This document shows positions 9,349 to 55,280 of a stretch of 64,000 nt of DNA, piece after piece. Positions within the stretch are counted from its first letter, which is position 1; each line of letters begins with the position of its first letter. Both the position numbers and the translations under genes were made by a program. The notes below the pieces were generated by a model. It saw only the letters and a list, made by a program, of their open reading frames with translations. It ran no database searches and was not told the origin of the DNA. Source of the DNA: Arenicola marina. Its lineage: Eukaryota; Annelida; Polychaeta; Arenicolidae. The stretch lies in the NCBI GenBank assembly GCA_964019135.1, contig OZ025263.1, forward strand, positions 33,334,133 through 33,398,132, read 5' to 3'.

Positions 9349-12300
9349 TCGCCTCGTGTCGTCTTGTCCCCGCCTCGTGTCGCCTTGTCCTCGCCTCGTC
9401 TTGTCCCCGCCTCGTGTCGCCTTGTCCTCGCCTCGTGTCGTCTTGTCCTCGCCTCGTGTCGTCTTGTCCTCGCCTCGTGTCGTCTTGTCCTCGCCTCGTG
9501 TCGTCTTGTCCTCGCCTCGTGTCGTCTTGTCCTCGCCTCGTGTCGTCTTGTCCTCGCCTCGTGTCGTCTTGTCCTCGCCTCGTGTCGTCTTGTCCTCGCC
9601 TCGTGTCGTCTTGTCCTCGCCTCGTGTCGTCTTGTCCTCGCCTCGTGTCGTCTTGTCCTCGCCTCGTGTCGTCTTGTCCTCGCCTCGTGTCGTCTTGTCC
9701 TCGCCTCGTGTCGTCTTGTCCTCGCCTCGTGTCGTCTTGTCCTCGCCTCGTGTCGTCTTGTCCTCGCCTCGTGTCGTCTTGTCCTCGCCTCGTGTCGTCT
9801 TGTTCTCGCCTCGTGTCGCCTTGTCCTCGCCTCGTGTCGTCTTGTCCTCGCCTCGTGTCGTCTTGTCCTCGCCTCGTGTCGTCTTGTCCTCGCCTCGTGT
9901 CGTCTTGTCCTCGCCTCGTGTCGCCTTGTCCCCGCCTCGTGTCGTCTTGTCCTCGCCTCGTGTGGTCTTGTCCTCGCCTCGTGTCGTCTTGTCCTCGCCT
10001 CGTGTCGTCTTGTCCTCGCCTCGTGTCGTCTTGTCCTCGCCTCGTGTCGTCTTGTCCTCGCCTCGTGTCGTCTTGTCCTCGCTTCGTGTCGTCTTGTCCT
10101 CGCCTCGTGCCGTCTTGTCCTCGCCTCGTGTCGTCTTGTCCGCGCCTCGTGTCGTCTTGTCCTCGCCTCGTGTCGCCTTGTCCTCGCCTCGTGTCGTCTT
10201 GTCCTCGCTTCGTGTCGTCTTGTCCCCGCCTCGTGTCGTCTTGTCCCCGCCTCGTGTCGTCTTGTTCTCGCCTCGTGTCGTCTTGTTCTCGCCTCGTGTC
10301 GTCTTGTCCCCGCCTCGTGTCGTCTTGTCCTCGCCTCGTGTGGTCTTGTCCTCGCCTCGTGTCGTCTTGTCCTCGCCTCGTGTGGTCTTGTCCTCGCCTC
10401 GTGTCGCCTTGTCCTCGCCTCGTGTCGTCTTGTCCTCGCCTCGTGTCGTCTTGTCCTCGCCTCGTGTCGTCTTGTCCTCGCCTCGTGTCGTCTTGTCCTC
10501 GCCTCGTGTCGTCTTGTCCTCGCCTCGTGTCGTCTTGTCCTCGCCTCGTGTCGTCTTGTCCCCGCCTCGTGTCGTCTTGTCCTCGCCTCGTGTCGTCTTG
10601 TCCTCGCCTCGTGTCGTCTTGTCCTCGCCTCGTGTCGTCTTGTCCTCGCCTCGTGTCGTCTTGTCCTCGCCTCGTGTCGTCTTGTCCTCGCCTCGTTGGT
10701 CTTGTCCTCGCCTCGTGTGGTCTTGTCCTCGCCTCGTGTCGTCTTGTCCTCGCCTCGTGTCGTCCTGTCCTCGCCTCGTGTCGTCTTGTCCTCGCCTCGT
10801 GTCGTCTGGTCCTCGCCTCGTGTCGTCTTGTCCTCGCCTCGTGTCGTCTTGTCCTCACCTCGTGTCGTCTTGTCCTCGCCTCGTGTCGTCTTGTCCTCAC
10901 CTCGTGTCGTCTTGTCCCCGCCTGGTGTCGTCTTGTCCTCGCCTCGTGTCGTCTTGTCCTCGCCTCGTGTCGCCTTGTCCCCGCCTCGTGTCGTCTTGTC
11001 CTCGCCTCGTGTGGTCTTGTCCTCGCCTCGTGTCGTCTTGTCCTCGCCTCGTGTCGTCTTGTCCCCGCCTCGTGCCGTCTTGTCCTCGTCTCGTGTCGTC
11101 TTGTCCTCGCTTCGTGTCGTCTTGTCCTCGCCTCGTGTCGTCTTGTCCTCGCCTCGTGTCGTCTGGTCCTCGCCTTGTGTCGTCTTGTCCTCGCCTTGTG
11201 TCGTCTTGTCCTCGCCTCGTGTCGTCTTGTCCTCGACTCGTGTCGCCTTGTCCTCGCCTCGTGTCGTCTTGTCCTCGCCTCGTGTGGTCTTGTCCTCGCC
11301 TCGTGTCGTCTTGTCCTCGCCTCGTGTCGTCTTGTCCTCGCCTTGTGTCGTCTTGTCCTCGTCTCGTGTCGTCTTGTCCTCGCCTCGTGTGGTCTTGTCC
11401 TCGCCTCGTGTCGTCTTGTCCTCGCCTCGTGTCGTCTTGTCCTCGCCTTGTGTCGTCTTGTCCTCGCCTCGTGTCGTCTTGTCCTCGCCTCGTGTGGTCT
11501 TGTCCTCGCCTCGTGTCGTCTTGTCCTCGCCTCGTGTCGTCTTGTCCTCGCCTTGTGTCGTCTTGTCCTCGCCTCGTGTCGTTATGTCCTCGACTCGTGT
11601 CGCCTTGTCCTCGCCCCGTGTCGTCTTGTCCCCGCCTCGTGTCGTCTGGTCCTCGCCTCGTGTCGTCTTGTCCACGCCGCGTGTCGTCTTGTCCTCGCCG
11701 CGTGTCGTCTTGTCCTCGCCTCGTGTGGTCTTGTCCTCGCCTCGTGTCGTTTTTTCCCCGCCTCGTGTCGTCTGGTCCTCGCCTCGTGTCGTCTTGTACT
11801 CGCCTCGTGTCGTCTTGTCCTCGCCTCGTGTCGTCTTGTTCTCACCTCGTGTCGTCTTGTCCTCGCCTCGTGTCGTCTTGTACTCGACTCGTGTCGTCTT
11901 GTCCTCGCTTCGTGTCGTCTTGTACTCGCCTCGTGTCGTCTTGTCCTCGCCTCGTGTCGTCTTGTCCTCGCCTCGTGTCGTCTTGTCCTCGCCTCGTGTC
12001 GTCTTGTACTCGCCTCGTGTCGTCTTGTCCTCGCCTCGTGTCGTCTTGTCCTCGCCACGTGTCGTCTTGTCCTCGCCTCGTGTCATCTGGTCCTCGCCTC
12101 GTGTCGTCTTGTCCTCGCCTCGTGTCGTCTTGTCCTCGCCTCGTGTCGTCTTGTCCTCGCCTCGTGTCGTCTTGTACTCGCCTCGTGTCGTCTTGTCCTC
12201 GCCTCGTGTCGTCTTGTACTCGCCTCGTGTCGTCTTGTCCTCGCCTCGTGTCGTCTTGTCCTCGCCTCGTGTCGTCTTGTCCTCGCCACGTGTCGTCTTG

Positions 12301-13908
12301 TCCCCGCCTGGTGTCGTCTTGTCCCCGCCTCGTGTCGTCTTGTCCTCGCCTCGTGTGGTCTTGTCCTCGCCTCGTGTCGTCTTGTCCTCGTGTCGTCTTG
12401 TCCTCGTGTCGTGTCGTCTTGTCCTCGCCTCGTGTCGTCTTGTCCTCGCCTCGTGTCGTCTTGTCCTCGCCTCGTGTCGTCTTGTCCTCGCCTCGTGTCG
12501 TCTTGTCCTCGCCTCGTGTCGTCTTGTCCTCGCCTCGTGTCGTCTTGTCCTCGCCTCGTGTCGTCTTGTCCTCGCCTCGTGTCGTCTTGTCCTCGCCTCG
12601 TGTCGTCTTGTCCTCACCTCGTGTGGTCTTGTCCTCGCCTCGTGTCGTCTTGTCCTCGCCTCGTGTCGTCTTGTCCTCGCCTCGTGTCGTCTTGTCCTCG
12701 CCTCGTGTCGTCTTGTCCTCGCCTCGTGTCGTCTTGTCCTCGCCTCGTGTCGTCTTGTCCTCGCCTCGTGTCGTCTTGTCCTCACCTCGTGTGGTCTTGT
12801 CCTCGCCTCGTGTCGTCTTGTCCTCGCCTCGTGTCGTCTTGTCCTCGCCTCGTGTCGTCTTGTCCTCGCCTCGTGTCGTCTTGTCCTCACCTCGTGTGGT
12901 CTTGTCCTCGCCTCGTGTCGTCTTGTCCTCGCCTCGTGTCGTCTTGTCCTCGCCTCGTGTCGTCTTGTCCTCGCCTCGTGTCGTCTTGTCCTCGCCTCGT
13001 GTCGTCCTGTCCGCGCCTCGTGTCGTCTTGTCCTCGCCTCGTGTGGTCTTGTCCTCGCCTCGTGTCGCCTTGTCCTCGCCTCGTGTCGTCTTGTCCTCGC
13101 CTCGTGTCGTCTTGTCCTCGCCTGGTGTCGTCTTGTCCTCGCCTCGTGTCGTCTTGTCTTCGCCGCGTGTCGTCTTGTCCTCGCCTCGTGTCGTCTTGTC
13201 CTCGCCTCGTGTCGCCTTGTCCTCGCCTCGTGTCGTCTTGTCCTCGCCTCGTGTCGTCTGGTCCTCGCCTCGTGTCGTCTTGTCCACGCCGCGTGTCGTC
13301 TTGTCCTCGCCTCGTGTGGTCTTGTCCTCGCCTCGTGTCGTTTTTTCCCCGCCTCGTGTCGTCTGGTCCTCGCCTCGTGTCGTCTTGTACTCGCCTCGTG
13401 TCGTTTTGTCCTCGCCTCGTGTCGTCTTGTCCTCGCCTCGTGTCGTCTTGTCCTCGCCTTGTGTCGTCTTGTCCTCGCCTCGTGTCGTCTTGTCCTCGCC
13501 TCGTGTCGTCTTGTCCTCGCCTCGTGTCGTCTTGTCCTCGTCTCGTGTCGTCTTGTCCTCGCCTCGTGTCGTCTTGTCCTCGCCTCGTGTCGTCTTGTAC
13601 TCGCCTCGTGTGGTCTTGTCCTCGCCACGTGTCGTCTTGTCCTCGCCTCGTGTCATCTGGTTCTCGCCTCGTGTCGTCTTGTCCGCGCCTCGTGTCGTCT
13701 TGTCCTCGCCTCGTGTCGTCTTGTCCTCGCCTCGTGTCGTCTTGTCCTCGCCTCGTGTCGTCTTGTCCTCGCCTCGTGTCGCCTTGTCCTCGCCTCGTGT
13801 CGTCTTGTCCCCGCCTCGTGTCGTCTTGTCCCCGCCTCGTGTCGTCTAGTCCCCGTCTCGTGTGGTCTTGTCCTCGCCTCGTGTCGTCTTGTCCTCGCCT
13901 CGTGTCGT
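9349..13908 (-). repeat. 21-bp minisatellite array 1 (about 217 units)
   Basis: A tandem array of 4,560 bp, unit 21 bp. The reverse-strand unit contains GAGGACAAGACGACAC followed by GAGGC. The plus strand is nearly free of A, and each unit carries three CpGs. Because 21 is seven codons and the unit has no stop in any frame, all six frames stay open for hundreds of codons. Internal periodicities of 105 bp (variant GTGTGGTC at 11,282, 11,387, 11,492) and 168 bp (variant CACCTCGTGTGG at 12,615 and 12,783) show block duplication in exact unit multiples. Small indels near 10,690 and 12,385-12,412 shift phase. It is the expanded form of the E7 seed. Confidence 0.97.
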
Positions 13909-13967
13909 AAGGGATGCCCTGACCATACAAGTGGAAACTGACCCGCAGCGCGGGTAACCTGAGGTCT

Positions 13968-14057
13968 ATTTCACGAACTATTTGGTCGGATAAAATCATT
14001 TACATGGTGGCTTTAGTCGACTAAGCCCCGTAGTCGGTTAAACTGCGTTCGTGAAAT
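13968..14057. mobile_element. Foldback (palindromic) mini-element
   Basis: A 90-bp near-palindrome runs from ATTTCACGAAC to GTTCGTGAAAT, with an inner stem made of GGCTTTAGTCGACT and TAAGCCCCGTAG-type arms. The same element, in reverse orientation, is at 40,990-41,094 in F2. Copy F1 lacks it at the corresponding place (about 31,340-31,352). It is a small non-autonomous inverted-repeat element, class unknown. Confidence 0.6.
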
Positions 14058-14774
14058 CTGACAAAGGTCACTTCCGGTTTGTGACTGCCGCTCCGGGGCC
14101 TAATATTAATGAAGGAAAAGCTTCGTGTTCCGTTCAGTTGAGGTCAGTGCCACGATAATGACAAAGATACACTAGCGCAGTGCTGCTTACCTCAGTGTGG
14201 AGCGAGATCATTGATGCCGTGGTTTGGTCACCCTTGGTGACAAATATGGTGAAAGCGGGCAATATCATATGACAAAGCAGGCACTAACTGACAATCAAGG
14301 TATGCATGCAATATGTATCATTCACGATGTCCGCCTTTCTTTTAATATATTTAATTTTTATCCAGAATAATTTAAAGTCAGTTTTTATCCGCAGGTAAGC
14401 ATACGTGATGAGTAAAATATCACAACCTTATAACTGTAAATCCCTTTTACTTTCACCCCATTTAAATGATTTAACAATGTTGGTTTTAGTTCTATAAATG
14501 TTTGACAATATCACTATAAGTCCCCTTAAATGTCTCAATAATTTCTGCCTCTTTAAATGTTTCAATGGTATCTACGTAACAACATCAATAGGTATATTTC
14601 AATGTCACCGTTATAAAAAATGCAAATAAGTGTCTTTAAATTTATCAACCATACTCACATTCATATATGAATGTGAGTTGCCCTAAAATGCACGTTTTCT
14701 TGTTGAATTAGCGTTCAGCGTCTTAACGCTAATTAATTCCTGAAATTTACCCCCAAACCTACCGTAAGCATAAC

Positions 14775-15380
14775 GCGCTATGAAAACAACACTTATGAAA
14801 TAGACCAATCCAGGCTGTCAACCATTCACTCACGTCACTGTTGCTTTTATCCAGACACACCGCCTCTCATCCGACAACATGTTATCTTCTTTATAAGCCT
14901 AACGCGCTATGATTATTATATATCTTTATTCGTACTTGGAGTACAGATGACAGTCACAGAGAAAAAAAAAATCAACATCAACACACACAAAAAACCGACC
15001 GATTTCGGTCTGTGCTACTCAGTGCATAAATACTCGATGATGTCAGTTATGCCTTCATTGTCGTCAAAACCTGTATGTTGTGCCCTTAATTGCAAAAATT
15101 GTTTTATGGAACCGACACGCATTAAATGTTCTTCCGTGGCGCGATCACAATGATTTAAGATGTACTGCCTTAAGCGGCTGGCTGATAAAGCACTCAAATT
15201 GTACTTAATGATACGATATTTGTCACATATAAAATTTACACTGTTACTTTTATTGGATTAACTTCCCTTTAAGAATAACCGTGCACAGACATTCGTGAAA
15301 TTTATGAAAACAACACTTATGTAATAGAACGATCCAGGCTGTCAATCATTCATTGACGTCACTGTTCCTTTTATCCAATC
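14775..15380. repeat. Direct duplication of a 75-bp block E6 segment
   Basis: The sequence TATGAAAACAACACTTAT through GTCACTGTTnCTTTTATCCA occurs at about 14,779-14,853 and again at about 15,303-15,380, with a few substitutions. The two copies bracket an inserted segment (14,913-15,302). F1 has the equivalent block once. Confidence 0.7.
14913..15302 (-). mobile_element. Possible LINE 3' fragment on the minus strand
   Basis: About 390 bp is absent from the matching place in F1 (near 30,540). TATGA stands on both sides (14,908-14,912 and 15,303-15,307). On the minus strand the segment ends with GAATAAAGATATATAATAA, a polyadenylation signal and A/T-rich tail typical of a retroposed 3' end. It carries a minus-strand frame (15,015 to about 15,230) with the stretch LRQYILNHCDRATEEHL. 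I do not recognise that peptide. The insertion itself is well supported by the copy comparison, but the LINE identity is inference. Confidence 0.4.
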
Positions 15381-15949
15381 AAGTGGTGAAAAGAGATCTT
15401 CCACGTGCGTTAGTTCGGACAAACAAGTCGGACAAAGCAGCGTGTTACTTTCTTGTCAGTTTCAGAGATGAGCACTTCTCACTTGTACCTACCATCAGCT
15501 AGGATTGTCAATTTCATACTCACCAGTAAGGAAAAAAGACTCAAGCTTGGGCGGGGCTTAGTGTTGAAGCCTGGATCGGTCTATTGGATTCGGGATAACA
15601 CCCACAAAACGTAACGATGTCGCTAAAATCTCGCATCTCATTCGTTTGGTGCCGGTTCACAAGGCTGGTGCACATTTCCCATTTAATATTTCGCCTGTTT
15701 ACTTTAGGCGGTGAAGAGTACACTGCATAATGAAATTCTTTGGGTGGGAATAGACCACCGTTTCAAACCCGTGGTAAAAACGAACCCAGTTGAACCCAGG
15801 CGATGGAGTGAGACTGACGTTATTGCTCCCGCTGTAGTCATTTCATAGCCACGAAAGTTCACTTTTTCTCCTTGTCGACGCCGATGAAACCAGTCTGCAG
15901 ACTGTCTTGATTAAAATGGGGCGCTAGTAGGCGGGCGGGGTGGGAGGGA

Positions 15950-16355
15950 GGCGGGGAGGCTCAATCCCCTTGGATACCGCGCCCGGTGCTTTAACCCTCG
16001 ACTCACCTTCCGTTGACTGAAGGTCCCAGCGCCAGAGTTGTGAAATTCCCACACCGATAACTAGCTAATCGAGTAAATTTGCGCGGCGAGTGCCAAAAGT
16101 TGCCTTGTAACACTGAATAGTGGCAGGTCTTGGTTCGAAAGTAGTTGTAAATGTTTCACAAATGTTCGTAGAAGCCAGGTAGGTTACTGATTTGGAGATT
16201 CAGCCATTAGAGATACAAGGCATTGAAGTGGGTGTTGACGCTCCGTGGCAGCCGTCGAGTCGTATAACCTCTTCTTATTTAGCTCGTCGCGGCGCATTCC
16301 AGGCCTTCAGCATAGCCTTCTCCTATTGGCCTGACGCAAAAAAACCGTGACCTGA
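15950..16355. other. Unassigned sequence between block E6 and the LINE fragment
   Basis: This stretch has no visible counterpart in F1 or F2 and no open frame of note. It lies immediately 5' of the Crack/Daphne-like LINE fragment and may be LINE-derived or host flank. I see no specific feature. Confidence 0.4.
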
Positions 16356-16357
16356 AA

Positions 16358-17545
16358 CGGCTCTAGAAGTGCTAAAGAATTATTTAACCGATCGTAAACA
16401 ATATGTTGAAATTGATAACTATGGCTCCGAGTTGGCCCATTTAACAACAGGAGTCCCCCAAGGTTCAATACTGGGTCCGCTTCTTTTTATCATTTAGATG
16501 AATGATATCACATCGGCTAGCGACCTCTTTCATTTTATATTGTATGTAGATGACACTACTCTGATAGGTACCTTAAGCCCAGTACAAAATGATACATCAG
16601 CATCCTCCAGTGCCTTATTAAACGATGCACTAAGTATTATAAGCAAATGGTTAAATGACAGTAGACTCTCATTAAATCCTAGTAAGAGTAAATTCATGGT
16701 CTTCCATATGCCTGGCAAGAAACAGCAGTTGCCAGATATTGTAATAAATGATGTAAAAGTTGAATGCGTAGATGAATTCAACGTGCTGGGTTAAACAATC
16801 ACCAAGAATATGAAGTAGCATAGTCATGTTGACTAGATCTGCATTAAAATCTCAAAGGCCCTGGGAATACTGAATAGACTCAAACATACTCTTCCCAAAT
16901 ACACTCTTTTAACTATATACAATTCCCTCATTCTTCCGTACATAAACTACAGCATACTAGCTTGGGGTTACTGTGGGGAACGAATATATAAACTACAGAA
17001 ACTATCATCAATTAAAAAATAATAATCTCCCCACGTGCTTCTCACAGATCCACATGACACGTTCCAACGAAATACACTCACATAATACAAGATATAAGGA
17101 TTATGCTCATACAAGTAGAGTTTACCATGATTATGCGAAGAAATGCATTAGTCATTGCCTAATTGAAATTGTAAATACCGAACCGGCAATAATTTTAGTT
17201 AAGATCAATACGCACAGCCTGATAGGATTCTCAAAGTACATTAAATGTAATATCATAAGCAATTATTCTGATCATTGTAGTCTTTTGAATTGCCATACAT
17301 GTCAGAAATAAAATTAGCCCCTCCGCCTTGCCCCTCCCCTCCACCGCGACCGCTCCCCCGCCCTCCCCTCCCCCCCACCCACTATTTGAGTTCCAGTTAT
17401 ATCATTCGTCTATGTTACAACAACTCCAGGTGGCTCAGCCGAGAGCGGTGTTCAACCTTAGTCTGACTTTATCTTTCATCTATGATCATTTATGTATTAT
17501 ATATTATCGCATTGACGAATAAATGATTTTGAATCTTGAATCTTG
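16358..17545 (+). pseudogene. Crack/Daphne-like LINE fragment (reverse transcriptase)
   Basis: This is a decayed 3' portion of a non-LTR retrotransposon. In order: NYLTDRKQYVEID, then GVPQGSILGPLLFII (RT motif B), a TAG stop at 16,495-16,497, then MNDI and FHFILYVDDTTLIGT with an intact YVDD catalytic motif, then SLNPSKSKFMVFHMPGKK and EFNVLG, then a TAA at 16,792-16,794. The frame continues as ISKALGILNRLKHTLPKYTL and LPYINYSILAWGYCG. A last frame (16,973-17,311) encodes the usual C-terminus with HSHNTRYK, THSLIGFSKYIK and NCHTCQK. The 3' end is GACGAATAAATGATTTTG followed by a GAATCTT-type terminal repeat. The intact family copies RNA into DNA at a nick, but this copy is broken by at least two stops and an internal deletion. 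It occupies the place of block E5 in R1. Confidence 0.85.
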
Positions 17546-17779
17546 AGTGACTGTTACTTTTGGGATGAGGCCAACAATTGAGAGGATGCTCACTATAGCG
17601 ACAGTTTTCCGGATCTGAAGGGTCAATATGGATATGAAGTATCAAATGTAGATCTGAGGGGTCAATCTGGATCTAAGGTGTCAAATCTGGATCGTAGGGG
17701 ACTATCATGTCACAAATAAAGTCACAGTCAAGTCAATTGTTAAAGTCAAGGTCATTAAGGTCATTGTTCGGCGTCACAA
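17546..17779. repeat. Degenerate 24-bp-scale repeats (GGATCTGAGGGGTCAAT type)
   Basis: Between the LINE tail and block E4 there are about four degenerate copies of a GGATCTnAGGnGTCAA(A/T) motif (17,612-17,700). No gene is seen. Confidence 0.5.
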
Positions 17780-18720
17780 TGAGTACATGCCAATGTTACT
17801 GTAATGGGAACGAAAGAGGCGATGTTTCCATGCATAGCTTTCTGGAAGCATATGAACGCCCCCTTCACCTTAACCATGCTCTAGCTCATGTAGATGTAAC
17901 GTTCTTCACTATAGTGACTCTTATGTTGGCGATGTCATATCTGACGGCTGGTGTACGACTTGCGACTTTGAGTGTTGTGGCGGACCTAGTGCTTTCGAGA
18001 AGTAGAACTTTTGCGCTTCATCACGATTATGAAGGATCAAAAATCAAGAAAACGCATTTTTGTTTCTTCAAAAACTGCTATTTCAGAAGAAATGCATATC
18101 TCGCGATCGGTCTAATCAAAGATTGTCTTTAGAATATTTGATCTAATAACCTACATTAACCTAGATTCCGCTGTCATTATAGTTCCCTAGAACACAAGCA
18201 GAGATAAATAGAGCAGCTAACTAACCCTTGGCAAGCCAAAGGGAATGACTTGAGATATCAGTGCGGCCAACCTGATAGGTGCCCTGATTGCAGACCACTT
18301 TGTCATGCCTTCCAAGCACTATAGTTTTGCTTTATACTGCGAGGATGTTTCTCACTTTTATTGCGGAAGAAGACAGGAATGAAGAGCCAATAAAAATCGG
18401 GAATACAAGGCCCCGGTAAAAAATGTCTGGATGACGTGGACCACCGGGTGCAAGAAGGTGGGCGCTGAGGGTAGAGGGGGAATAAGACAAGGAGTGCGGG
18501 ACAACAGGGCGGGATGGGCGGTGAGACAACGGCTCAGGATGTAAGACCTGAGCACTGTGAAGAGAACTGTATGGGGCAAGGGGGCGGATGGGGGGTAATA
18601 CAAGAGAGGCGGAAATGGGAGACAGGATGCGAAAGGGGAAGAGGCATTGGAGTAGACAGTAATAGCGCGAGGGGATGGAAGAGCAAAAAAAGAATAAAGG
18701 GAAAACCAAGAAAGCAAAAC

Positions 18721-18884
18721 AGGGGCGGATCCAGGGGGCCGACACGGCCCCGCCCCCCTTTCAGGGCCGACATTTATATCATTTAGCATAGGAGAACCGA
18801 AACCGCCCCCCCCCCCCCTATCCATCATATCTGGATCCGACCCTGAAACCGGCCCCCTCTATCCAGATTTTCTGGATCCGCCCT
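18721..18884 (+). mobile_element. 164-bp hAT-like MITE
   Basis: A short element with inverted ends: AGGGGCGGATCCAG at the left, and CTGGATCCGCCCT at the right. It is flanked by the direct repeat GCAAAAC (18,714-18,720 and 18,885-18,891), a 7-bp match that extends to 8 bp with one mismatch. This is in the size range of hAT target duplications. It sits inside block E3 of R1. In F1 and R4 the element is missing but two copies of the GCAAAA-type repeat remain, separated by 3 bp. The interior is C-rich and non-coding, so the element could only have moved with a transposase supplied from elsewhere. Confidence 0.75.
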
Positions 18885-20730
18885 GCAAAACGAGCGCAAC
18901 GGATGGAAGGGGACGCAGAAGGGAGGACTGAGGAAAGGAAAGAGTGGATAGTTCACTTGACTTAACGAAACTCTCAATCTGTCAGACATTGTTTGGCCAC
19001 CCAAGTTTGAAGGAGGATCCGAACATGATACGCAAGAAAATCAAACGTAATAACTGTTACGAGACCGAGATCGGAGGGAGGGGGACACTGTCGTGGTCAC
19101 GCGACACTGCAAAACCTCTCGAATATATTCTCAGCTGTCTCAACCCACACTCCAACCATTATCGCTTATCACAGCTCACCACAAAACTAGTCGATTGATG
19201 TCTGAAGGGTGACGATCCCCCGAACACCTGGCCAGCCATCTTGGATCTTCTCCAGAAAAGCAATGGGGCATTGGAACTCCAGGAGTTGAAGCGACAGTCA
19301 TGTTATTGCCACCCTCGGGTGGACCATTTGTCAGCTATCCCAATACTGAATGGTAATTACTTAACATCATATGCAAAATGCTCTTATTCTAGTCGCGTAC
19401 ATTTTAATATCTCACGCGGCTACGAAACACGATAAATACCGTGCTTTCTGTGTAATAAGAGCCAAAGTCGGTCCGCCTAATATCGGTTTTATTCGTAAAA
19501 TGGGTAACTAAAGAACCAGCAGCACTGCATTCGCAAAAATAAGAGACATCCATTAATATTTATATTAATGTTTGCCAGAAGGCTATGCAACGAGCGAAAC
19601 ACTGGTAGAAATGGCTCCGTGATGTCAATAGACTCCACAACATGACTATCTGCTAAATGGCACCCTCTTTACTTATGGAAATGAGCTGGTAGATAGATGT
19701 GCAGATCTCTGTCATTGTGTCGTTGGTCGTTGTCTCTGCAACACATCACTGTCCTTTCTGTCTGACTTCACTTAGCTTTTACGACTTTATATTCTGATCA
19801 TGAATAACATGCATAACCTAAAAGAACATTATAGAAGAGGACCTTTACTTTGCATATTTGAGAGCATTGAGATTGCGAGCGAGAATTAAATTATCAGGGG
19901 AGAAAGCCAAACCTTCTTTTTTTGCGGCGGGACACCATGATTCCAGAGTATAGAAGCTTTTCTTGTGAGATGAAAGGTTGACAGTATAAAAGTTTGTACT
20001 TATTTATTGCATAGTGTCTACCATACGACTGTCACTTTCGCAAAGCTCAGCGACCCAAGAAGAATATGGAGGGCGCACAGTTATTAAGTATCAATGACAA
20101 AACTTCATGACCGATATATCGATATATCGATATAAGTTAAACCTCAGATCTGATGTGATTGGCTACTTCCCGAATAATAAAGAGACCCGCCCACCTCATG
20201 GGCCATTATTTTTTACCATGACGGTTTCATCAGAGCTGGAATGGAGCCCCTGGTGGGCGAGGGTGAAACTATACGTGTCTTCGTTACACAGAGCTTAACG
20301 TTGTCCTTAACATCGAGCTCCTCGTCTCACCCAATCACAAGCCAGCCTGCCCCACTGCGCCCCCCCCCCCCCCACCCCCGCACTGCCCATCACAGCGCCG
20401 TTGGAACCCAGTCTTTATGTAAGCAGTACACGTGCCCATGTCCTTTCATATGAAGTAAACCTACGCCGTCTTTTTTGGCCTCAGGTTAATTAGACTCCAG
20501 GAATAACAAACTTCTTCTTGTAGCTCATTAACCACAGTATCTGCTGTCCGCGGTACATGGCTTAAACACATGCTTTTTACGCCTCTACTCTACCGCTCGG
20601 TATTTATTGAGGTTGTGTTGCATAGATTCCGTGTACTCCGGTAGTTTAATCGCCATGACTACCCCATGCTTGCTACGGACGTTTAAGGGGGACGGCTGAC
20701 ATATATTGGCTTCTTTCTACTATATTTCTT

Positions 20731-24600: not shown

Positions 24601-24702
24601 TCGACGGCCCGTCTGTCTAATCAGGCTAATTTAGAGGGGGTGACGTCTTGACGAACGGTAAAGACATCACGGCGGGAGACTAGACGGTGCAGCCAGAAAT
24701 AA

Positions 24703-24718
24703 AACAGAAAGAGAGAGG

Positions 24719-38933: not shown

Positions 38934-38935
38934 AG

Positions 38936-41094: not shown

Positions 41095-41741
41095 CAGGTC
41101 CCAGGTTAGCCGCGCTGCGGGTCAGTTTCCACTTGTACAGTCAAGGCATTCCTTCTCCTCTATCTCCCAGGGGGCAGGTCTCGCCGCCCCACCCGTTGCC
41201 CACTTCCTCCCGCCCCTGCCGTTGCCTACGCGGTAAGGCCATCCGTTCAGGGATCTGGTTACCGCAGTGGCTGACATCCGGTGGTGACGTATGTTCGGCG
41301 TTGTGAGTACACGTGACATTCTCGCTGCGGAAACGAGGCTTACACCTGACTGATATCTACTTTTTTTTAGCATAAATGCAACTGTTTGTTGCTGGTTACT
41401 GTCTCTGACCTTCTGCACAAATCACCCCTCCGCCCCCCCCCCCCCACCCTCCACCCATCTTCCTCTCTCTCTCTCTTCCTGCCCATATGTCTCTCTCTCT
41501 CACAGTTTTTCTCCCTCTCTTCCATCCCTTTCTTTCTCTTACTTGTTCTCCCTATCTCGCCATCTCTCCCCCTCTCTCCCTCTCCCTCTCTTTTTGTTTT
41601 ATTTTTACAGCTGGTCTGGTGTCCCGCGGTGATGTCTTCATAGTCCGCCAGACGTCTCCCCTCCCTAATTAGCCTGTTTAGACAGAGGGGCCGTTGAACT
41701 GCCATCTACCGGCCAGCCGGGGACCTCGGCGAGACCAAACT

Positions 41742-44700
41742 GAGGCGAGGACAAGACGACACGAAGCGAGGACAAGACGACACGAGGCGTGGACAAGGCG
41801 ACACGAGGCGGGGACAAGACGGCACGAGGCGCGGACAAGACGACACGAGGCGAGGACAAGACGACACGAGGCGAGGACAAGACCACACGAGGCGAGGACA
41901 AGACGACACGAGGCGAGGACAAGACGACACGAGGCGAGGACAAGACGACACGAGGCGAGGACAAGACGACACGAGGCGAGGACAAGACCACACGAGGCGA
42001 GGACAAGACGACACGAGGCGAGGACAAGACGACACGAGGCGAGGACAAGACGACACGAGGCGAGGACAAGACGACACGAGGCGAGGACAAGACGACACGA
42101 GGCGGGGACAAGACGACACGAGGCGAGGACAAGACGACACGAGGTGAGGACAAGACGACACGAGGCGAGGACAAGACGGCACGAGGCGCGGACAAGACGA
42201 CACGAGGCGAGGACAAGACGACACGAGGCGAGGACAAGACCACACGAGGCGAGGACAAGACGACACGAGGCGAGGACAAGACGACACGAGGCGGGGACAA
42301 GACGGCACGAGGCGCGGACAAGACGACACGAGGCGAGGACAAGACGACACGAGGCGAGGACAAGACCACACGAGGCGAGGACAAGACGACACGAGGCGAG
42401 GACAAGACGACACGAGGCGAGGACAAGACGACACGAGGCGAGGACAAGACGACACGAGGCGAGGACAAGACGACACGAGGCGAGGACAAGACGACACGAG
42501 GCGAGGACAAGACGGCACGAGGCGCGGACAAGACGACACGAGGCGAGGACAAGACGACACGAGGCGAGGACAAGACCACACGAGGCGAGGACAAGACGAC
42601 ACGAGGCGAGGACAAGACGACACGAGGCGGGGACAAGACGGCACGAGGCGCGGACAAGACGACACGAGGCGAGGACAAGACGACACGAGGCGAGGACAAG
42701 ACCACACGATGCGAGGACAAGACGACACGAGGCGAGGACAAGACGACACGAGGCGAGGACAAGACGACACGAAGCGAGGACAAGACGACACGAGGCGAGG
42801 ACAAGACGACACGAGGCGAGGACAAGACGACACGAAGCGAGGACAAGACGACACGAGGCGAGGACAAGGCGACACGAGGCGAGGACAAGACGACACGAGG
42901 CGAGGACAAGACGACACGAGGCGAGGACAAGGCGACACGAGGCGAGGACAAGACGACACGAGGCGAGGACAAGACGACACGAGGCGAGGACAAGACGACA
43001 CGAGGCGAGGACAAGGCGACACGAGGCGAGGACAAGGCGACACGAGGCGAGGACAAGGCGACACGAGGCGAGGACAAGACGACACGAGGCGAGGACAAGA
43101 CGACACGAGGCGAGGACAAGGCGACACGAGGCGAGGACAAGACGACACGAGGCGCGGACAAGACGACACGAGGCGAGGACAAGACGACACGAGGCGAGGA
43201 CAAGACGACACGAGGCGAGGACAAGACGACACGAGGCGAGGACAAGACGACACGAGGCGAGGACAAGACGACACGAGGCGAGGACAAGGCGACACGAGGC
43301 GAGGACAAGGCGACACGAGGCGAGGACAAGACGACACGAGGCGAGGACAAGGCGACACGAGGCGAGGACAAGACCACACGAGGCGAGGACAAGACGACAC
43401 GAGGCGAGGACAAGACGACACGAGGCGAGGACAAGACGACACGAGGCGAGGACAAGACGACACGAGGCGAGGACAAGACGACACGAGGCGAGGACAAGAC
43501 GACACGAGGCGAGGACAAGACGACACGAGGCGAGGACAAGACGACACGAGGCGAGGACAAGGCGACACGAGGCGAGGACAAGACGACACGAGGCGAGGAC
43601 AAGACGACACGAGGCGAGGACAAGACGACACGAGGCGAGGACAAGACGACACGAGGCGAGGACAAGACGACACGAGGCGAGGACAAGGCGACACGAGGCG
43701 AGGACAAGACGACACGAGGCGAGGACAAGGCGACACGAGGCGAGGACAAGACGACACGAGGCGAGGACAAGACGACACGAGGCGAGGACAAGGCGACACG
43801 AGGCGAGGACAAGACGACACGAGGCGAGGACAAGACGACACGAGGCGAGGACAAGACGACACGAGGCGAGGACAAGACGACACGAGGCGAGGACAAGACG
43901 ACACGAGGCGAGGACAAGACGACACGAGGCGAGGACAAGACGGCACGAGGCGAGGACAAGACGACACGAGGCGAGGACAAGACGGCACGAGGCGAGGACA
44001 AGACGACACGAAGCGAGGACAAGACGACACGAGGCGAGGACAAGACGACACGAGGCGAGGACAAGACGACACGAGGCAAGGACAAGACGACACGAGGCGA
44101 GGACAAGACGACACGAGGCGAGGACAAGACGACACGAGGCGAGGACAAGACGACACGAGGCGAGGACAAGACGACACGAGACGAGGACAAGACGACACGA
44201 GGCGAGGACAAGACGACACGAGGCGCGGACAAGACGACACGAGGCGAGGACAAGACGACACGAGGCGAGGACAAGACGACACGAGGCGAGGACAAGACGG
44301 CACGAGGCGCGGACAAGACGACACGAGGCGAGGACAAGACGACACGAGGCGAGGACAAGACGACACGAGGCGAGGACAAGGCGACACGAGGCGAGGACAA
44401 GGCGACACGAGGCGAGGACAAGACGACACGAGGCGAGGACAAGGCGACACGAGGCGAGGACAAGACCACACGAGGCGAGGACAAGACGACACGAGGCGAG
44501 GACAAGACGACACGAGGCGAGGACAAGACCACACGAGGCGAGGACAAGACGACACGAGGCGAGGACAAGACGACACGAGGCGAGGACAAGACGACACGAG
44601 GCGAGGACAAGACGTCACGAGGCGAGGACAAGACGACACGAGGCGAGGACAAGGCGACACGAGGCGAGGACAAGACGACACGAGGCGAGGACAAGACGAC

Positions 44701-46520
44701 ACGAGGCGAGGACAAGACGACACGAGGCGAGGACAAGACGACACGAGGCGAGGACAAGACGACACGAGGCGAGGACAAGGCGACACGAGGCGAGGACAAG
44801 ACGACACGAGGCGAGGACAAGGCGACACGAGGCGAGGACAAGACGACACGAGGCGAGGACAAGACGACACGAGGCGAGGACAAGGCGACACGAGGCGAGG
44901 ACAAGACGACACGAGGCGAGGACAAGACGACACGAGGCGAGGACAAGACGACACGAGGCGAGGACAAGACGACACGAGGCGAGGACAAGACGACACGAGG
45001 CGAGGACAAGACGACACGAGGCGAGGACAAGACGGCACGAGGCGAGGACAAGACGACACGAGGCGAGGACAAGACGGCACGAGGCGAGGACAAGACGACA
45101 CGAAGCGAGGACAAGACGACACGAGGCGAGGACAAGACGACACGAGGCGAGGACAAGACGACACGAGGCGAGGACAAGACGACACGAGGCGAGGACAAGA
45201 CGACACGAGGCGAGGACAAGACGACACGAGGCGAGGACAAGACGACACGAGGCGAGGACAAGACGACACGAGGCGAGGACAAGACGACACGAAGCGAGGA
45301 CAAGACGACACGAGGTGAGGACAAGACGACACGAGGCGCGGACAAGACGACACGAGGCGAGGACAAGACGACACGAGGCGAGGACAAGACGACACGAGGC
45401 GAGAACAAGACGACACGAAGCGAGGACAAGACGACACGAGGCGAGAACAAGACGACACGAGGCGAGGACAAGACGACACGAGGCGAGGACAAGACGACAC
45501 GAGGCGAGGACAAGACGACACGAGACGAGGACAAGACGACACGAGGCGAGGACAAGACCACACGAGGCGCGGACAAGACGACACGAGGCGAGGACAAGAC
45601 GACACGAGGCGAGGACAAGACGACACGAGGCGAGGACAAGACGACACGAGGCGAGGACAAGACGACACGAGGCGAGGACAAGACGACACGAGGCGAGGAC
45701 AAGACGACACGAGGCGAGGACAAGACGACACGAGGCGAGGACAAGGCGACACGAGGCGAGGACAAGACGACACGAGGCGAGGACAAGACGACACGAGGCG
45801 AGGACAAGACGACACGAGGCGAGGACAAGACGACACGAGGCGAGGACAAGACGACACGAGGCGAGGACAAGACGACACGAGGCGAGGACAAGACGACACG
45901 AGGCGAGGACAAGACGACACGAGGCGAGGACAAGACGACACGAGACGAGGACAAGACGACACGAGGCGAGGACAAGACGACACGAGGCGCGGACAAGACG
46001 ACACGAGGCGAGGACAAGACGACACGAGGCGAGGACAAGACGACACGAGACGAGGACAAGACGGCACGAGGCGAGGACAAGACGACACGAGACGAGGACA
46101 AGACGACACGAGGCGAGGACAAGACGACACGAGGCGAGGACAAGACGACACGAGGCGAGGACAAGACGACACGAAGCGAGGACAAGACGACACGAGGCGA
46201 GGACAAGACGACACGAGGCGAGGACAAGACGACACGAGGCGAGGACAAGACGACACGAGGCGCGGACAAGACGACACGAGGCGAGGACAAGACGACAAGA
46301 GGCGGGGACAAGACGACACGAGGCGAGGACAAGACGACACGAGGCGAGGACAAGACGACACGAGGCGAGGACAAGACGACACGAGGCGAGGACAAGGCGA
46401 CACGAGGCGAGGACAAGACGACACGAGGCGGGGACAAGACGACACGAGGCGAGGACAAGATGACACGAGGCGCGGACAAGACGACACGAGGCGAGGACAA
46501 GACGACAAGAGGCGAGAGAG
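41742..46520 (+). repeat. 21-bp minisatellite array 2 (about 228 units)
   Basis: A tandem array of about 4,780 bp, the same 21-bp unit as array 1 but in the opposite orientation (core GAGGACAAGACGACAC). Only about six T residues occur in the whole plus strand. Each unit has 16 purines of 21 and three CpGs. A block with the signature GACGGC...GACGGC...ACGAAGCG occurs at 43,939 and again at 45,031, 1,092 bp or exactly 52 units apart. This is a large segmental duplication within the array. All six frames are open throughout, a consequence of the stop-free seven-codon unit. Left flank ACCTCGGCGAGACCAAAC and right flank GCGAGAGAGGACAGAGGC are block E7 and G sequence. Confidence 0.97.
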
Positions 46521-47104
46521 GACAGAGGCTAACATTCCAATGATAACAGATTGCCACCATTGTTGCGGGATCGGTAGCATTAAAACAGGCAAGAAAATAA
46601 AAGAAGCGTAGCCTGCAGGAGCAAGAATGCTGTTGACATTGCGCTGAATTGCCCGCCCAATGAGTTATTTAGTGTAGGAATTTAGAGAACATTTGTGGGT
46701 GTCCGGTGTCAGTAAACACCTACCCTTCAATGGCGAAAGCCCCATAATTAATTACTGCTCCATTCACGCGTTATTCAGAAAATTGTAGGTGCACACTGAA
46801 GCCTGAAACTGCCTTATTATCGTTATTGTCATTTTCAACACAGCTGCTCGTTTAGCTATTGGCATCATGGAATCGATAATAATTATGATTATAATTGCTT
46901 ATGATTGTCACTTGGATAATGAAGTAATACTAGAATTATAAGCTGACAATAGTGTTGTCACATGCTGCCAAAAATCGCCTGCGGTTCCAGCGTTGATCTC
47001 ACACTCTGGGTGGCGGGTCAATGACTGAAAGATTTGCTTATTCAGAAGAATTAACGGGACCCTAAAGTTGTTTTGGTCAGAATTATTAATATCAGACAAT
47101 TCTA

Positions 47105-49452: not shown

Positions 49453-49822
49453 GACGAGGTAATCCGATAGTGTAATCACCATGACGTCTGACGAGGTAAT
49501 CCGATAGTGTAATCACCATGACGTCTGACGAGGTAATCCGATAGTGTAATCACCATGACGTCTGACGAGGTAATCCGATAGTGTAATCACCATGACGTCT
49601 GACGAGGTAATCCGATAGTGTAATCACCATGACGTCTGACGAGGTAATCCGATAGTGTAATCACCATGACGTCTGACGAGGTAATCCGATAGTGTAATCA
49701 CCATGACGTCTGACGAGGTAATCCGATAGTGTAATCATCATGACGTCTGACGAGGTAATCCGATAGTGTAATCACTATGACGTCTGACGAGGTAATCCGT
49801 TAGTGTAATCACCATGATGTCT
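49453..49822. repeat. 37-bp tandem array (10 units)
   Basis: Ten nearly identical 37-bp units containing GAGGTAATCCGATAGTG and TAATCACCATGACGTCT. The single-copy counterparts are in block B of R1 (20,619-20,665), F2 (34,601-34,638) and R4 (53,490-53,545). F2 shares the stretch CGATAGTGTAATCACCATGAC-type core on its minus strand. The array is an in-place expansion of that block. Each unit has a TGACGTC half of a CRE-like palindrome. Confidence 0.95.
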
Positions 49823-50913
49823 GAAATATTGGCTTTTTTCAGATCATTGAGTATATTTTTCACTAAGTAATGGATATATTAGCTTTTATTCGGAGTATCG
49901 TTTATCTCCTGAAACCCTCATACTGTGAATGTATAATAGCTGCTATGTTCTCAATCATCACTTCTCACAGGAATCACCCCTTACGCTTGAGAAGTAACAT
50001 ATATCATCGTTTACGTTCTACCTCAGTAGGTAAGCTGTTTGAGCTGCCAATCAACAGTCAACCAATCAACAGGCATAAATCCAAAAGCATTTTATTTCCT
50101 ATTTTAGATGCAACATATACTGCTTAAATATCGGAAACGCTGTATACGTTGCTATGACCCTAGCCAACAACATGTTCGAAGCAGACGTTAGTAATTTTAT
50201 AGCGAGATGTCAAGGAACTGCTACATGTATATCCAATGTTATATGTGTTCGTATGAAAACTAATCAACGCTGTTGGCTATATCAATCTGTGGATCAGCGG
50301 TGCGCTGTCTTAAAGGCCCGATGACGGCTAATGTAATGCTACTGCCTGGTTCATGTGTGTTGATTTCTTGTTATCGTCATGTCACCAATCTGCCGTACGA
50401 TTGTATCTTATCGTGAAAAGCTTAGGTTGAGTGGGCGCTGAATGTGCCATCTTTTCACATTGCTTTTCTGATTGACAGGTCGATACATGTTGATAAGATG
50501 AAGAATATTCGGCTAAGGGTAATTCCACGATTTGCTGTTGGCGAGCGATAATCAGGGTTTAACTGTTCGCACAATGCTGGTATTTGGGATCAAACGTGAT
50601 GACCCCATGATGACCTCTTGATGACCTCTTGATGACCTTGCCCACGGGGAGATCCTCTTCTTCCTCTTCAACTATGCTGACCTGTAACCACACAGGGTTG
50701 GTGGAGGAGGGGGGGGGGGGGGGCACTTAATTAAATGAAATTGGGCAAAAGGCAAACTATCCGGTGAAGATCCGGTTTTGCAATGGAAGTCGGGTCTTTG
50801 ATGAATACCAGACGCTTGTCAGGTGAACCGCGCTTGTAATGACCGGTGCGGTGGCGAAAGAAGTAATTGGTGTTTTTTTGATTTTTTTTTAAGTGTTGGG
50901 GGCGCCATTGTGC

Positions 50914-51122
50914 TATTGTGCCATTGTGTCATTGTGCCATTGTGGCATTGTGCCATTGTGCCCTTGTGCCATTGTGCCATTGTGCCATTGTGCCCTTGTG
51001 CCCTTGTGCCATTGTGCCATTGTGCCCTTGTGCCATTGTGCCATTGTGCCATTGTGTCATTGTGTCATTGTGCCATTGTGCCATTGTGTCATTGTGTCAT
51101 TGTGTCATTGTGTCATTGTGTC
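50914..51122. repeat. 10-bp tandem array (about 21 units)
   Basis: Ten-base units of GCCATTGTGC and close variants. R4 has the same flanks (TTGGGGGCGC on the left, an ATATGGTGCGATGCA stretch downstream) but only CGCAATTTTGCCCCAA in between (about 54,918-54,945). The array therefore marks a second kind of local expansion in block P. Confidence 0.95.
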
Positions 51123-51284: not shown

Positions 51285-54200
51285 TTCCATACGCGTCATT
51301 ATGATTTCCTGGAATCGCTGCCTTCCCAGCGACCGTTGCTGATAAAGTAAGTATCCAGGTATGTTTCACAGTTGGAGTCAGACACAGGAAGACAGATCGC
51401 CGTAAGGCTCACCATCCGGGGTGACACAGGATACAAAGGAATATCACACCAGCAAAACTGAAGACCTTCCGTACTGTACCATCCACAGATGTCTATGGTA
51501 CCTGCGCTTCCTGTGAGAGCACTGGTGAATAAAAGTGACCTGCCCCACCCCCCTCCACGCCTTCTCTCGCCGATTATGATCGGAAGTGTCTTACTTGGAT
51601 CGCATCCCCTGTGGGCAGCTCAACACTCTCTTCACGCCCGTCCAATCTAATTTTTCGTCCAATTACCTACATTGACCTAGGTTCCGCTGTCATTATAGCA
51701 ATCGGTCGCGCGTTTCGGAAGTTAGAAACGGATGAAGAGAGCAGAAAAATAACCCTTTGACAGCCGAAGGGAAGACATCGGTGCGGCCAACCCGATAGGT
51801 GCTCTGATTGCAGACCACCTTGTCATGCCCTCCAAGCACTAATAGTTGCAAAAATTGTTTCGCTTTATACTGCCAGGATGTGTCTGGGAAGCGCTTTTAT
51901 CACGGTATGGATGATGAGCGAATGGAGATCGGGAATACAAGACCCCCGTGAAAAGTGAGATGTCTTCATGATGCGGACCACGGGGGTGTAGGTGGCGGGA
52001 GGGGGAGGGGGGCAGAGGGGGAAGGGGAGGGGGAATGAGACAAGGAGTGTGCGGAGAGAACACGGCTCCGGGGGGAAAATCTGGAGATTGGAAAGATAAC
52101 CGCATGGAGGAGGGGGAGGAGGTATGATAAAATGAGAGCGACGAAAAGGAGAGAGGATACAAAAGGGGAAGTATCATTGGAGTAGACAGTAATGGCGCGA
52201 AAGGATGGACGAGCAGAGCAGGAAGGAAGAGAAAACCAGGACGGCAAAACAAAGCAAAAAAAACGTAATAGGTGGAAGGGAACACAGGGGGGAGGGGTGA
52301 AGCCACAGGAAAGAGTGGATAGTTCATTTGACTTAACGACACTCTCAGCCTGTCAAGTGCTATTTTGGCCGTCCAAGCATAAAGGAGGATCTGAAAATTG
52401 AAAACGCAGGGAAATAAAACGTAAGAAAATGTTGCGAGACAGGGATCGGCGGGAGGAGCGGTAAGAGGGGTAAGAACGACGGGACACGCAAAACTGAAGA
52501 CGATACACCCCTCAGGAAACTTGCGTAAAGTGACAATAAAAAAAGGAAATGAACCAGCAAAAACGGACAAAAATTAGAGTGCAAGATATTCCGTATAATA
52601 TCAGTATTATTCTTGACATGAATAACTAAAGAACCAGCGGGACTGCATTCGCTGAACTATGAGAGATACATTAATGTTCATATTAATTAGGCCCTTTCTC
52701 TTGCAGAAATTAGTAAGTTTTGACAATATCAAACCCGCTTGCTCACCGTTGCCCTGTGGCAATTATCGGGTTCCTGCGAGCGGGAAAGTAATCATAAAAG
52801 AAAACCGAAGACTTATTTGGGCACAATGCGCAATCATTCCACAATATAAGTCCTTCTTTTGTTGAGATGAAAGGTTGACGGCATGAAAGGTTGTACTTGT
52901 TTTTAACAATAGCTACCATGCAGGTACTGTAATTTTTGCCGAGGAACCCAACAAGGTTATGGAGGACGCACGGGTATTAAATATCAGTGCTAAGAAGTCA
53001 TGACCGATATCTCAGAGGTTAAAGCTTAGACGTGTGATTGGTTATTGCCCGATCACAAGGAAACCCGCCCACCTGATTGGCCATTATTTCTGACATGGGA
53101 TGCCATGTCTATTTCATCAGAGCTGGAATAGAGCCCCTGGTGGGCGAGGATGGAACTATACGTGTCTGTGTTACACAGAGCTTAACGTTGTCCTAAACAT
53201 CGAGCTCCTCGTCTCACCCAATCACATTCCAGCCTGCCCCACTCCTCCCACCCCCCCCCCACTTGCCCCTCACAGCGCTGTCGGAACCGGAAGTATATAC
53301 CAGTCAATATGTAAGCAATACACGAACTCACGTCATATCATTTGGAGTAACGTTTTTTTTTGTCCTAGACTCTGTATTCCAGGGATAAGAGACTAATGCG
53401 TTGTCATCTTTCGGCGTTATACACTTAATACGGGGAAATATAAGTGCGCAGATAGAGTAACGTGCTTCTTGGGGGAGTGTTTATTGCGGTCGTGTTGTAT
53501 GACGATCAGGTAATGCAATAGTACTGTTACTGCCCGTGCTTGATACGGAGGTTTGAGGCAGATATTCTTTCAGTTAATGGATAATGTTACACAAACTACA
53601 TACATTTTTGTGGACAAGAAATGGGTTTTGGGGATTTTAGTATCTACTGGATGCTCGTAGTGTGACTGTATTATGGCTGCGGCTGTCTGGACAGCTTCTG
53701 GATCAGGTAATCATCCATGGTTGACTGGAATCCCCTAATCCTCTGGAGAAGTAACATACATCATCAGCGGTCTGAGCGGCCAACCAACGGTCACCCAGCC
53801 AACAGACAACATCCAACAAACCATCAGTCAACAAACCATCAGCCAACAAACCATCAGCCAACCAACCAACAGCCAATCAACCATCAGCTGATGTAATTGA
53901 ATTGAACCAACAGCCAACCAACCAACCAACAACCAACCAACAGCCAACAAACCAACAACCAACCAAGAGCCAACCAACCAACAACCAACCAACAACCAAC
54001 CAACAATCAACCAACCAACAACCAACCAACAGCCAACTAACCAAACAACAACCAACCAACAGACAACCAACAGCCAACCAACAGCCAACCAAGCAACAAC
54101 CAACAAACAGCCAACAAACCAACAGCCAACCAAGCAACAACCAACAGCCAACAAATCAACAGCCAACCAACAGCCAACCAACAGCCAACCAACCAACAGC

Positions 54201-55280
54201 CAATAAACCAACAGCCAACAAATCAAAGGTCAACCAACCAACAGCCAGCCAGCAGCCAACCAACCAACAGCCAACCAACAGCCAACCAACCAACAGCCAA
54301 CCAAGCAACAGCCAACCAACCAAGAACCAACCAAAAGCCAACCAACCAACAACCAACCAACAGCCAACCAACCAACAACCAACTAACAGCCAACCAACCA
54401 AACAACAACCAACCAACAGACAACCAACAGCCAACCAACCAACAGCCAAACAAGCAAGCTGTTCTTAATTAGAACCAGACCTGTCAATGAGCTACCATCC
54501 TTACATCCAATGTCATAACTGTTCGCATGATAACTGATCAACATTGTTGATCTACTATACGACACTACACTGCTGAACTACTACAGTAGCTCTAAATAAT
54601 TTAGTAACGCTGAGTGCATCGACCTTTAAAAACATAAAAGGTTCAGTCATAGACAGATCAGATATAAATGAAGCGTGAGACGATTTACACGGACTGTAAT
54701 GACACAGGAGATGGGGGTGGTGGGGGGGGGGGGCTTAATGTAACTGAACTCGACAAAAAGCAAAGTGTCTGGTAAAGATCCTGTTTAGTAATGGCAGTCG
54801 GGTCTTTAACGTATGAGAGCCGCTGGTGATCGAAGCACTTGAGAATAGTCAGGTGAACCGCGATTGTAATGACCGGTGCGGTGGCGGTGGGTGTCATTGG
54901 TGTTTCCTTGATGGAGATTGGGGGCGCAATTTTGCCCCAATTTGAGACCAAAGGACGGCCAATTTAACCCAATTTACGGGGCACAATAGTTCAATTTGTC
55001 AGCAATATGGTGCGATGCACGTGTCCCAAGATGTAACTCCAGCCGTCTCCGTCCATAAGACACATTGACTTGGCAGCCGTGCCCTTATATTGGACGTATA
55101 TCATGGTTATGAGCTAAACAGGCATTCACTGTCACAGGGAAGAGTTAAGGAGAGATTAAGTGCCACAATAAAGCAGTAATTAAGTGAAGATTAAATAAGA
55201 GCGAAAGAACAAATAACTGTAACAATGTAGATTCGATTAAATGGCATTGAATATGATGTAGTGGAGAGTTAATAAAACTT
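51285..55280 (-). repeat. Large repeat copy R4 (E5 to P)
   Basis: A reverse-oriented copy: E5 (51,285-51,420), E4 (51,420-51,890), E3 (51,890-52,300), E2 (52,300-52,990), B (52,990-53,820), the CAAC array, N (54,465-54,560) and P (54,700-55,275). The sequence 53,100-53,240 aligns directly with 20,225-20,360 in R1. In block E3 it has GCAAAAC, AAA, GCAAAAA at 52,244-52,260, the place where R1 carries the hAT-like MITE. Confidence 0.8.
53760..54460. repeat. CAACCAACAGC-type tandem array
   Basis: About 700 bp of 4-bp (CCAA) and 11-bp (CAACCAACAGC) units, almost free of T on the plus strand. Its unexpanded counterpart in R3 (50,046-50,075) reads GCCAATCAACAGTCAACCAATCAACAGG-like sequence with three motif copies. 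F2 (34,290-34,330) has none. Glutamine/proline/asparagine-rich or tryptophan-rich frames across it are artefacts. Confidence 0.95.

Follow-up and report, generated by a model that had tools for sequence, protein, structure and literature searches.

Expanded and unexpanded minisatellite sites side by side in a probable local cluster of old duplicates in Arenicola marina

Introduction

The origins of minisatellites are hard to study, since the starting motif is usually gone. The stretch considered here, 64,000 bp of the annelid Arenicola marina (assembly GCA_964019135.1, contig OZ025263.1, C18:33334133-33398132; hereafter the window), raises the question of whether motif and array can be seen together, as an earlier note on this DNA had proposed in describing one repeat family with four array sites and unexpanded copies alongside. 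We find it probable that six old duplicates of a segment of ~9-10 kb, in both orientations and without recognizable genes, are clustered locally in the window, and that four array sites were born among them after the copies had split. Near-starting motif and finished array stand in paralogous copies a few tens of kb apart, at four sites, and the two array types tested are private to the locus. The process is already known in kind, and the cluster is a clean example of it.

A probable local cluster of old duplicates

Self-BLAST with the arrays masked revealed six related copies of one local segment, between 8.3 and 55.3 kb of the window. Copy boundaries were taken from this comparison, and the final end of R3 and both ends of R4 were placed by eye from the alignment:

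~8298-20722, forward strand: duplicate copy R1 (self-BLAST), its 5' start lost, broken by the 21-bp array, small inserts and a reverse-transcriptase fragment (RVT_1)
23494-24704, forward strand: duplicate copy R2, 5' part only (self-BLAST)
26077-33429, reverse strand: duplicate copy F1 (self-BLAST)
33958-47025, reverse strand: duplicate copy F2 (self-BLAST)
47255-~51250, forward strand: duplicate copy R3, with internal deletions (self-BLAST; end by eye)
~51262-~55300, forward strand: duplicate copy R4, 5' truncated (self-BLAST; ends by eye)

In block comparisons, identity between copies was 65-91% in 53 of the 58 block pairs, lower in four and 93% in one. Segmental duplications are usually recognized by a working cut-off of at least 90% identity. 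The present copies resemble such duplications in that several of >1 kb lie at one locus, and fall short of them in identity; since the block pairs are mostly 65-91% identical, the duplicates are old, and 'old duplicates' is the safer name.

The repeat family of the earlier note was by implication a dispersed one, a matter that we addressed by searching the 867,369,267-base assembly (762 contigs) with ~4.6 kb of the segment, the middle blocks (26305-28200, 35560-39470) and the 3' end of R3/R4 lying outside the queries. With 1.6 kb of F2 as query, 40 of the 43 candidates were scored and 42 matches obtained, seven within the window and 35 elsewhere, and all 35 of the latter were 84-174 bp pieces of a single insert resembling a miniature inverted-repeat transposable element (MITE); 'MITE-like', 'mariner-like' and similar terms are used here as labels from the look of the sequence. 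With a 1.3-kb query from F1, all nine candidates were scored, yielding 15 matches, of which ten were within the window and five, weak and 60-145 bp long, were elsewhere. A 1.7-kb query from F2 (40 of 1,740 candidates scored) gave 63 matches, seven in the window and 56 to a widespread short palindromic insert. No family copies outside the window were thus found with the ~4.6 kb queried, only 40 of the 1,740 candidates in the largest list having been scored. Family copies having turned up in this window only, the family seems, for the ~4.6 kb queried, to be a set of old duplicates clustered at one locus rather than a dispersed repeat.

A query from R1 was dominated by a short repeat, with two of its 40 scored candidates (4,335 in all) belonging to the family. 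This repeat, at 14911-15301 in R1, was matched at 38 other places by the 40 scored candidates of those 4,335, and is flanked on either side by a copy of a 75-bp stretch (14779-14853 and 15303-15377, by self-BLAST).

One property of the copies invites a different view, namely, that all six are members of a large non-autonomous transposon family: R2 (23494), F1 (33429) and R3 (47255) share a 5' starting point with unrelated DNA upstream in each, which is unusual for plain duplication breakpoints. We consider such a family very unlikely, given the failure of the searched stretches to find copies elsewhere in the assembly, a six-frame Pfam scan of F2 33958-41731 that came up empty to a limit of E 0.1, and the lack of long terminal repeats by self-BLAST of the window (short ones would escape). 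The 5' end is common to R2, F1 and R3, and no target-site duplication was identified at the copy ends. The first bases at the common 5' end are TC, after A, in R2 and F1, as in a Helitron; we dropped that candidate because R3 starts with TG and because neither a 3' end nor copies elsewhere could be found. An RNA gene or tRNA was likewise ruled out, with no Rfam match at gathering score in the window and none from a tRNA scan.

Expanded and unexpanded states at four sites

Within the cluster of old duplicates, Tandem Repeats Finder (TRF) and alignment of the copies located arrays and unexpanded sites as follows:

49453-49824, forward strand: 37-bp array in R3, 10 units, 98% alike (TRF)
20625-20659, forward strand: single 37-bp site in R1 (alignment)
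34604-34638, reverse strand: single 37-bp site in F2 (alignment)
53501-53532, forward strand: single 37-bp site in R4 (alignment)
9348-13908, forward strand: 21-bp array in R1, 218 units, unit CTCGCCTCGTGTCGTCTTGTC (TRF)
41732-46528, reverse strand: 21-bp array in F2, 229 units, consensus as in R1 (TRF)
24560-24580, forward strand: unexpanded 21-bp site in R2, partial seed, 14/21 (alignment; shuffles)
32119-32139, reverse strand: unexpanded 21-bp site in F1, one unit-length seed, 17/21 identical to the array unit (alignment; shuffles)
53796-54457, forward strand: CAAC-rich array in R4, TRF periods 7, 11, 15 and 26 (TRF)
50047-50073, forward strand: CAAC site in R3, near-single or two-copy, with an 11-bp repeat at 15-bp spacing (alignment)
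34280-34309, reverse strand: unexpanded CAAC site in F2 (alignment)
50904-51120, forward strand: 8-bp array in R3, 27 copies of GCCATTGT (TRF)
54925-54945, forward strand: unexpanded 8-bp site in R4 (alignment)

By TRF the units lie head to tail and measure 21, 21, 37 and 8 bp, and 7-26 bp in the CAAC array, within the range of ~7-100 bp that marks minisatellites. The F1 seed of the 21-bp site was matched as well by 0 of 5,000 shuffles and the R2 seed by 89 of 5,000. The CAAC site of R3 is an apparent two-copy stage, to judge from its repeat.

The flanks align with those of sister copies at all four sites, the exception being the immediate flanks of R1's 21-bp array. We compared each of 14 flank pairs with 1,000 random stretches of the window, from which true family copies were not removed, and for 11 of the pairs the same score was reached by 0-6 of the 1,000. 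The weak pairs all belong to the 37-bp site (R3-F2 left, 41 per 1,000; R3-R1 left, 40; R3-R4 right, 74), where homology is supported on the left through R3-R4 (2/1,000) and on the right through R3-F2 (1/1,000).

Some 30-40 bp of DNA lost from R3 at the 37-bp site are kept in R1 and F2, and partly in R4; R3 is therefore derived, and the unexpanded state ancestral. At the 21-bp and CAAC sites, each with two unexpanded copies, the unexpanded state would most simply be ancestral as well. The 8-bp site can be compared in R3 and R4 only, hence it is not polarizable. The opposite direction, in which the arrays are ancestral and the unexpanded copies are arrays that collapsed in the sisters, draws on the facts that arrays can contract, that conflicting trees (below) suggest exchange among the copies, and that the 8-bp site is compatible with it. 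We nonetheless hold collapse to be improbable: it is countered by the DNA kept at the 37-bp site, by the match of the F1 seed to the array unit (17/21, 81%), which equals the nearby F1-F2 identity (79.4% and 81.5%), and by the greater number of events that loss needs at the 21-bp, 37-bp and CAAC sites.

Birth after the copies split also agrees with where the arrays occur. A doubled 21-bp unit, at up to three mismatches, gave 205 forward and 225 reverse matches in the whole genome and the same 205 and 225 in the window; the 37-bp unit had ten matches genome-wide, all ten inside R3's array. The 21-bp and 37-bp arrays thus exist nowhere else in the assembly at the tolerance used. We rejected import from a satellite elsewhere for both units, all of whose genome matches are local.

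Before-and-after states at homologous sites, the central proposal of the earlier note, are in this way supported, with polarity clear at the 37-bp site and simplest at the 21-bp and CAAC sites. Its account of the 37-bp site, expanded only in R3 and single in R1, F2 and R4, was confirmed by TRF and alignment. For the 21-bp site it had given R1 and F2 as expanded and R2 and F1 as unexpanded, which stands, with the qualifications that R2's seed is partial and that R1's array lacks the flanks of F2's. The CAAC site is, as claimed, expanded only in R4 and nearly single in R3, and F2 has to be added as a second unexpanded site. What had been called a 10-bp site does have an array in R3 (50904-51120), with a unit of 8 bp, and its description as absent in R4 was too strong, since two degenerate motifs are apparently there by eye. 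Four array sites with unexpanded copies alongside are thus retained, with corrections to unit size, R1's flanks, the 21-bp seed of R2, the CAAC state of F2 and the 8-bp state of R4. The objection that the note had raised against itself, that the flanks of arrays and seeds might not be homologous, applies to the immediate flanks of R1's 21-bp array and not otherwise.

A probable single birth of the 21-bp array

The 21-bp site is the one at which two copies carry an array, so that one birth, two births and transfer have to be weighed. F2's array begins within a motif present once in F1 and R2, and both sides align. In R1, homology on the left ends at 9310 (F2 46667), leaving 139 bp to F2's array, and on the right it resumes at 13909 (F2 41154), about 577 bp past that array; R1 would either have lost DNA on both sides of its array or have received the array in another way.

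The consensus units of the two arrays are identical (21/21), and 11 of the 15 variant positions in F2 are also variant in R1 (7.4 expected, P = 0.023). R1-F2 is the closest pair in four of the seven blocks that hold both copies (B4, 86.8%; B9, 85.0%; B10, 85.7%; B11, 90.7%). The two copies also have two inserts in common, the first of which starts about 60 bp from R1's array:

13966-14060, forward strand: palindromic MITE-like insert in R1, with a counterpart in F2 (~40981-41104) and none in F1; edges approximate
19610-19835, forward strand: second MITE-like insert in R1, with a counterpart in F2 (~35295-35511) and none in R4 or F1; edges approximate

F1 is also without DNA adjoining the second insert that R1 and R4 have, and its lack of the insert is possibly a deletion. 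Taken together, the sequence comparisons most simply suggest that both 21-bp arrays stem from one birth in the common line of R1 and F2, followed by turnover. Separate expansions in R1 and F2 are not supported, since a single birth accounts for both arrays, whether or not transfer followed.

Several observations weigh against plain descent from that birth. The order of units is not common to the two arrays (score 10.0 against a shuffled median of 9.2). Other pairs are closer than R1-F2 in three of the seven blocks (B3, B7, B8), and the block trees conflict, with F1 and F2 together in B7 (bootstrap 97, 148 columns) and R1 and F1 together in B8 (bootstrap 94, 228 columns); the remaining three trees are weak (bootstrap 55, 55 and 66). 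Beside R1's array, R1 and F2 diverge by 20% in the left-hand block (B3) and by 13% in the right-hand one (B4), and at 13-20% divergence zero differences among the 21 consensus positions are expected in only ~1-5% of cases. Finally, R1's array is without the immediate flanks of F2's.

Because the block trees conflict, one birth by descent could instead be one birth followed by transfer, the array having arisen in one of R1 and F2 and moved later to the other by conversion or by re-insertion of an excised circle. This possibility is favored by the missing flanks, on either side of R1's array, by the perfect consensus match beside divergent DNA, and by the tree conflict itself, of which conversion might be the cause. 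It is opposed by the shared insert that starts so close to R1's array, as descent predicts, and by the unshared unit order, so that any transfer would not be recent; recent whole-array copying between R1 and F2 was rejected for this reason. We regard transfer as rather unlikely, yet as a live alternative that deserves more weight than either a transposon family or collapse, and take a single birth, with or without such transfer, as the simplest account.

How the arrays may have started and grown

In F2's array, variant units follow a pattern that repeats with a 52-unit lag (~1.1 kb), at 12 of 92 informative places (0.13), when the highest lag value in 300 shuffles of the array was 0.12. This recurrence points to block duplication rather than unit-by-unit growth. 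R1's array, on the other side of the balance, has no repeated block beyond shuffles.

As to how arrays begin, we sought direct repeats at unit spacing at eight unexpanded sites, with 2,000 shuffles as comparison. At the 21-bp site of F1, the two copies of a 6-bp direct repeat are spaced by exactly 21 bp (equaled by 51 of 2,000 shuffles), and the CAAC site of R3 has its 11-bp repeat at 15 bp (0 of 2,000). The other sites do not favor a start at such repeats: the 37-bp site of R1 has a 6-bp repeat at 37 bp (33 of 2,000) that is out of phase with the unit of R3, the CAAC site of F2 has just a 4-bp repeat (338 of 2,000), and unit-spaced direct repeats are absent, with 2-4 bp only, from the 21-bp site of R2, the 37-bp sites of F2 and R4 and the 8-bp site of R4. 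A search of the flanks for matches to array units gave nothing convincing, the best being 7 bp in the left flank of R2 (253 of 5,000 shuffles).

We propose that four separate sites gave rise to arrays after the copies split, within an array-rich genome. The 21-bp array would have had a single origin, in the lineage common to R1 and F2; the 37-bp array and (its direction unproven) the 8-bp array would have arisen in R3, and the CAAC array in R4. The initiating step, as we infer it, was probably a duplication through slippage or unequal exchange, for which short direct repeats may have been the site, with later growth by duplication of blocks of units and turnover inside each array; this order of events is likewise our reconstruction.

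Two models of minisatellite birth are set out in PMC6947457 and PMC3389668, namely, slippage at non-contiguous repeats and duplication between flanking repeats of 5-10 bp, and the idea that short direct repeats give rise to arrays through slippage or unequal exchange is there traced to Haber and Louis 1998 and Taylor and Breden 2000. The present cluster resembles the births so described in having near-single relatives beside one copy with an array, and in the unit-spaced repeats of F1 and of the CAAC site in R3; it differs in that four sites of one duplicated segment are involved, and in that the unexpanded 37-bp and 8-bp sites are without an in-phase repeat. The same papers describe arrays born inside repeated elements, for example, those derived from Alu or B1 in mammals. 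As in those cases, paralogous copies show the state before the array; unlike them, the present cluster seems to be built of local duplicates and not of a dispersed element.

Array density inside and outside the cluster

A family with four array sites might be thought unusually prone to making arrays, as had been suggested for this one. As a measure we took the number of arrays of at least 200 bp per 10 kb of non-array DNA. The outside control consisted of 53 loci, a non-random set, each centered on a match to a MITE-like or other short repeat, and 15 of the 53 were redundant. Density was 1.37 in the cluster (five arrays) and 5.12 in the remainder of the window (four arrays); outside, it came to 2.38 for all 53 loci (35 arrays over 167,140 bp) and to 3.05 for the 38 non-redundant ones (31 arrays over 119,604 bp). 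Since the cluster lies below both controls, special proneness is unsupported.

That the segment's own sequence raises array formation above the level elsewhere would be suggested by the five arrays at four sites in 47 kb, and by the strong strand asymmetry of the 21-bp arrays (AT skew to -0.97 in R1's and 0.995 in F2's). Against it stand the densities just given, those of the outside loci coming from non-random sampling, and the four further arrays of at least 200 bp in the 20 kb adjoining the window, one of which reaches the window edge next to the window's first array. We find intrinsic proneness the least probable of the alternatives considered here; the duplicated segment itself does not look special.

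Arrays (at least 100 bp, units of at least 7 bp) cover about 12-13% of the 167-kb non-random outside sample. The Atlantic cod genome is described as rich in tandem repeats in PMC5241972, and A. marina is like it in its dense tandem repeats, here for a 167-kb non-random sample. In the window, ~54-55% of the DNA outside the cluster is tandem array, and TRF found five arrays there:

1-5371: unit 38/76 bp
56959-57130: unit 35 bp
57601-58539: unit 62 bp
59812-61704: unit 34 bp
62609-63587: unit 77 bp

A tentative further reading, which we put forward as possible and still doubtful, is that this genome makes arrays so fast that most are private to a locus, with old local duplicates recording the states on either side of their birth. 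If so, the four births in one 47-kb cluster would make the rate of minisatellite birth measurable against sequence divergence within one genome alone. Should such a comparison succeed with further old duplicates of this array-rich genome, births of arrays could be counted rather than guessed.

Other elements in the window

Upstream of the cluster lies a remnant that we call mariner-like (5842-6500), with inverted ends at 5854-5899 and 6435-6480 and a match to the DUF4817 helix-turn-helix between them. Two broken pieces resemble non-LTR (long terminal repeat) retrotransposons: 16366-16800, with an RVT_1 match, and 21200-23490, with a zf-RVT match just below cut-off, which ends at the start of R2. 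A repeat of ~110-240 bp (56243-56410 and 61877-61990; loci L069 and L070) recurs several times near arrays on both sides of the cluster. Between R2 and F1, TRF and self-BLAST revealed GC-rich degenerate arrays (25403-26013) with a large imperfect palindrome (25418-25642).

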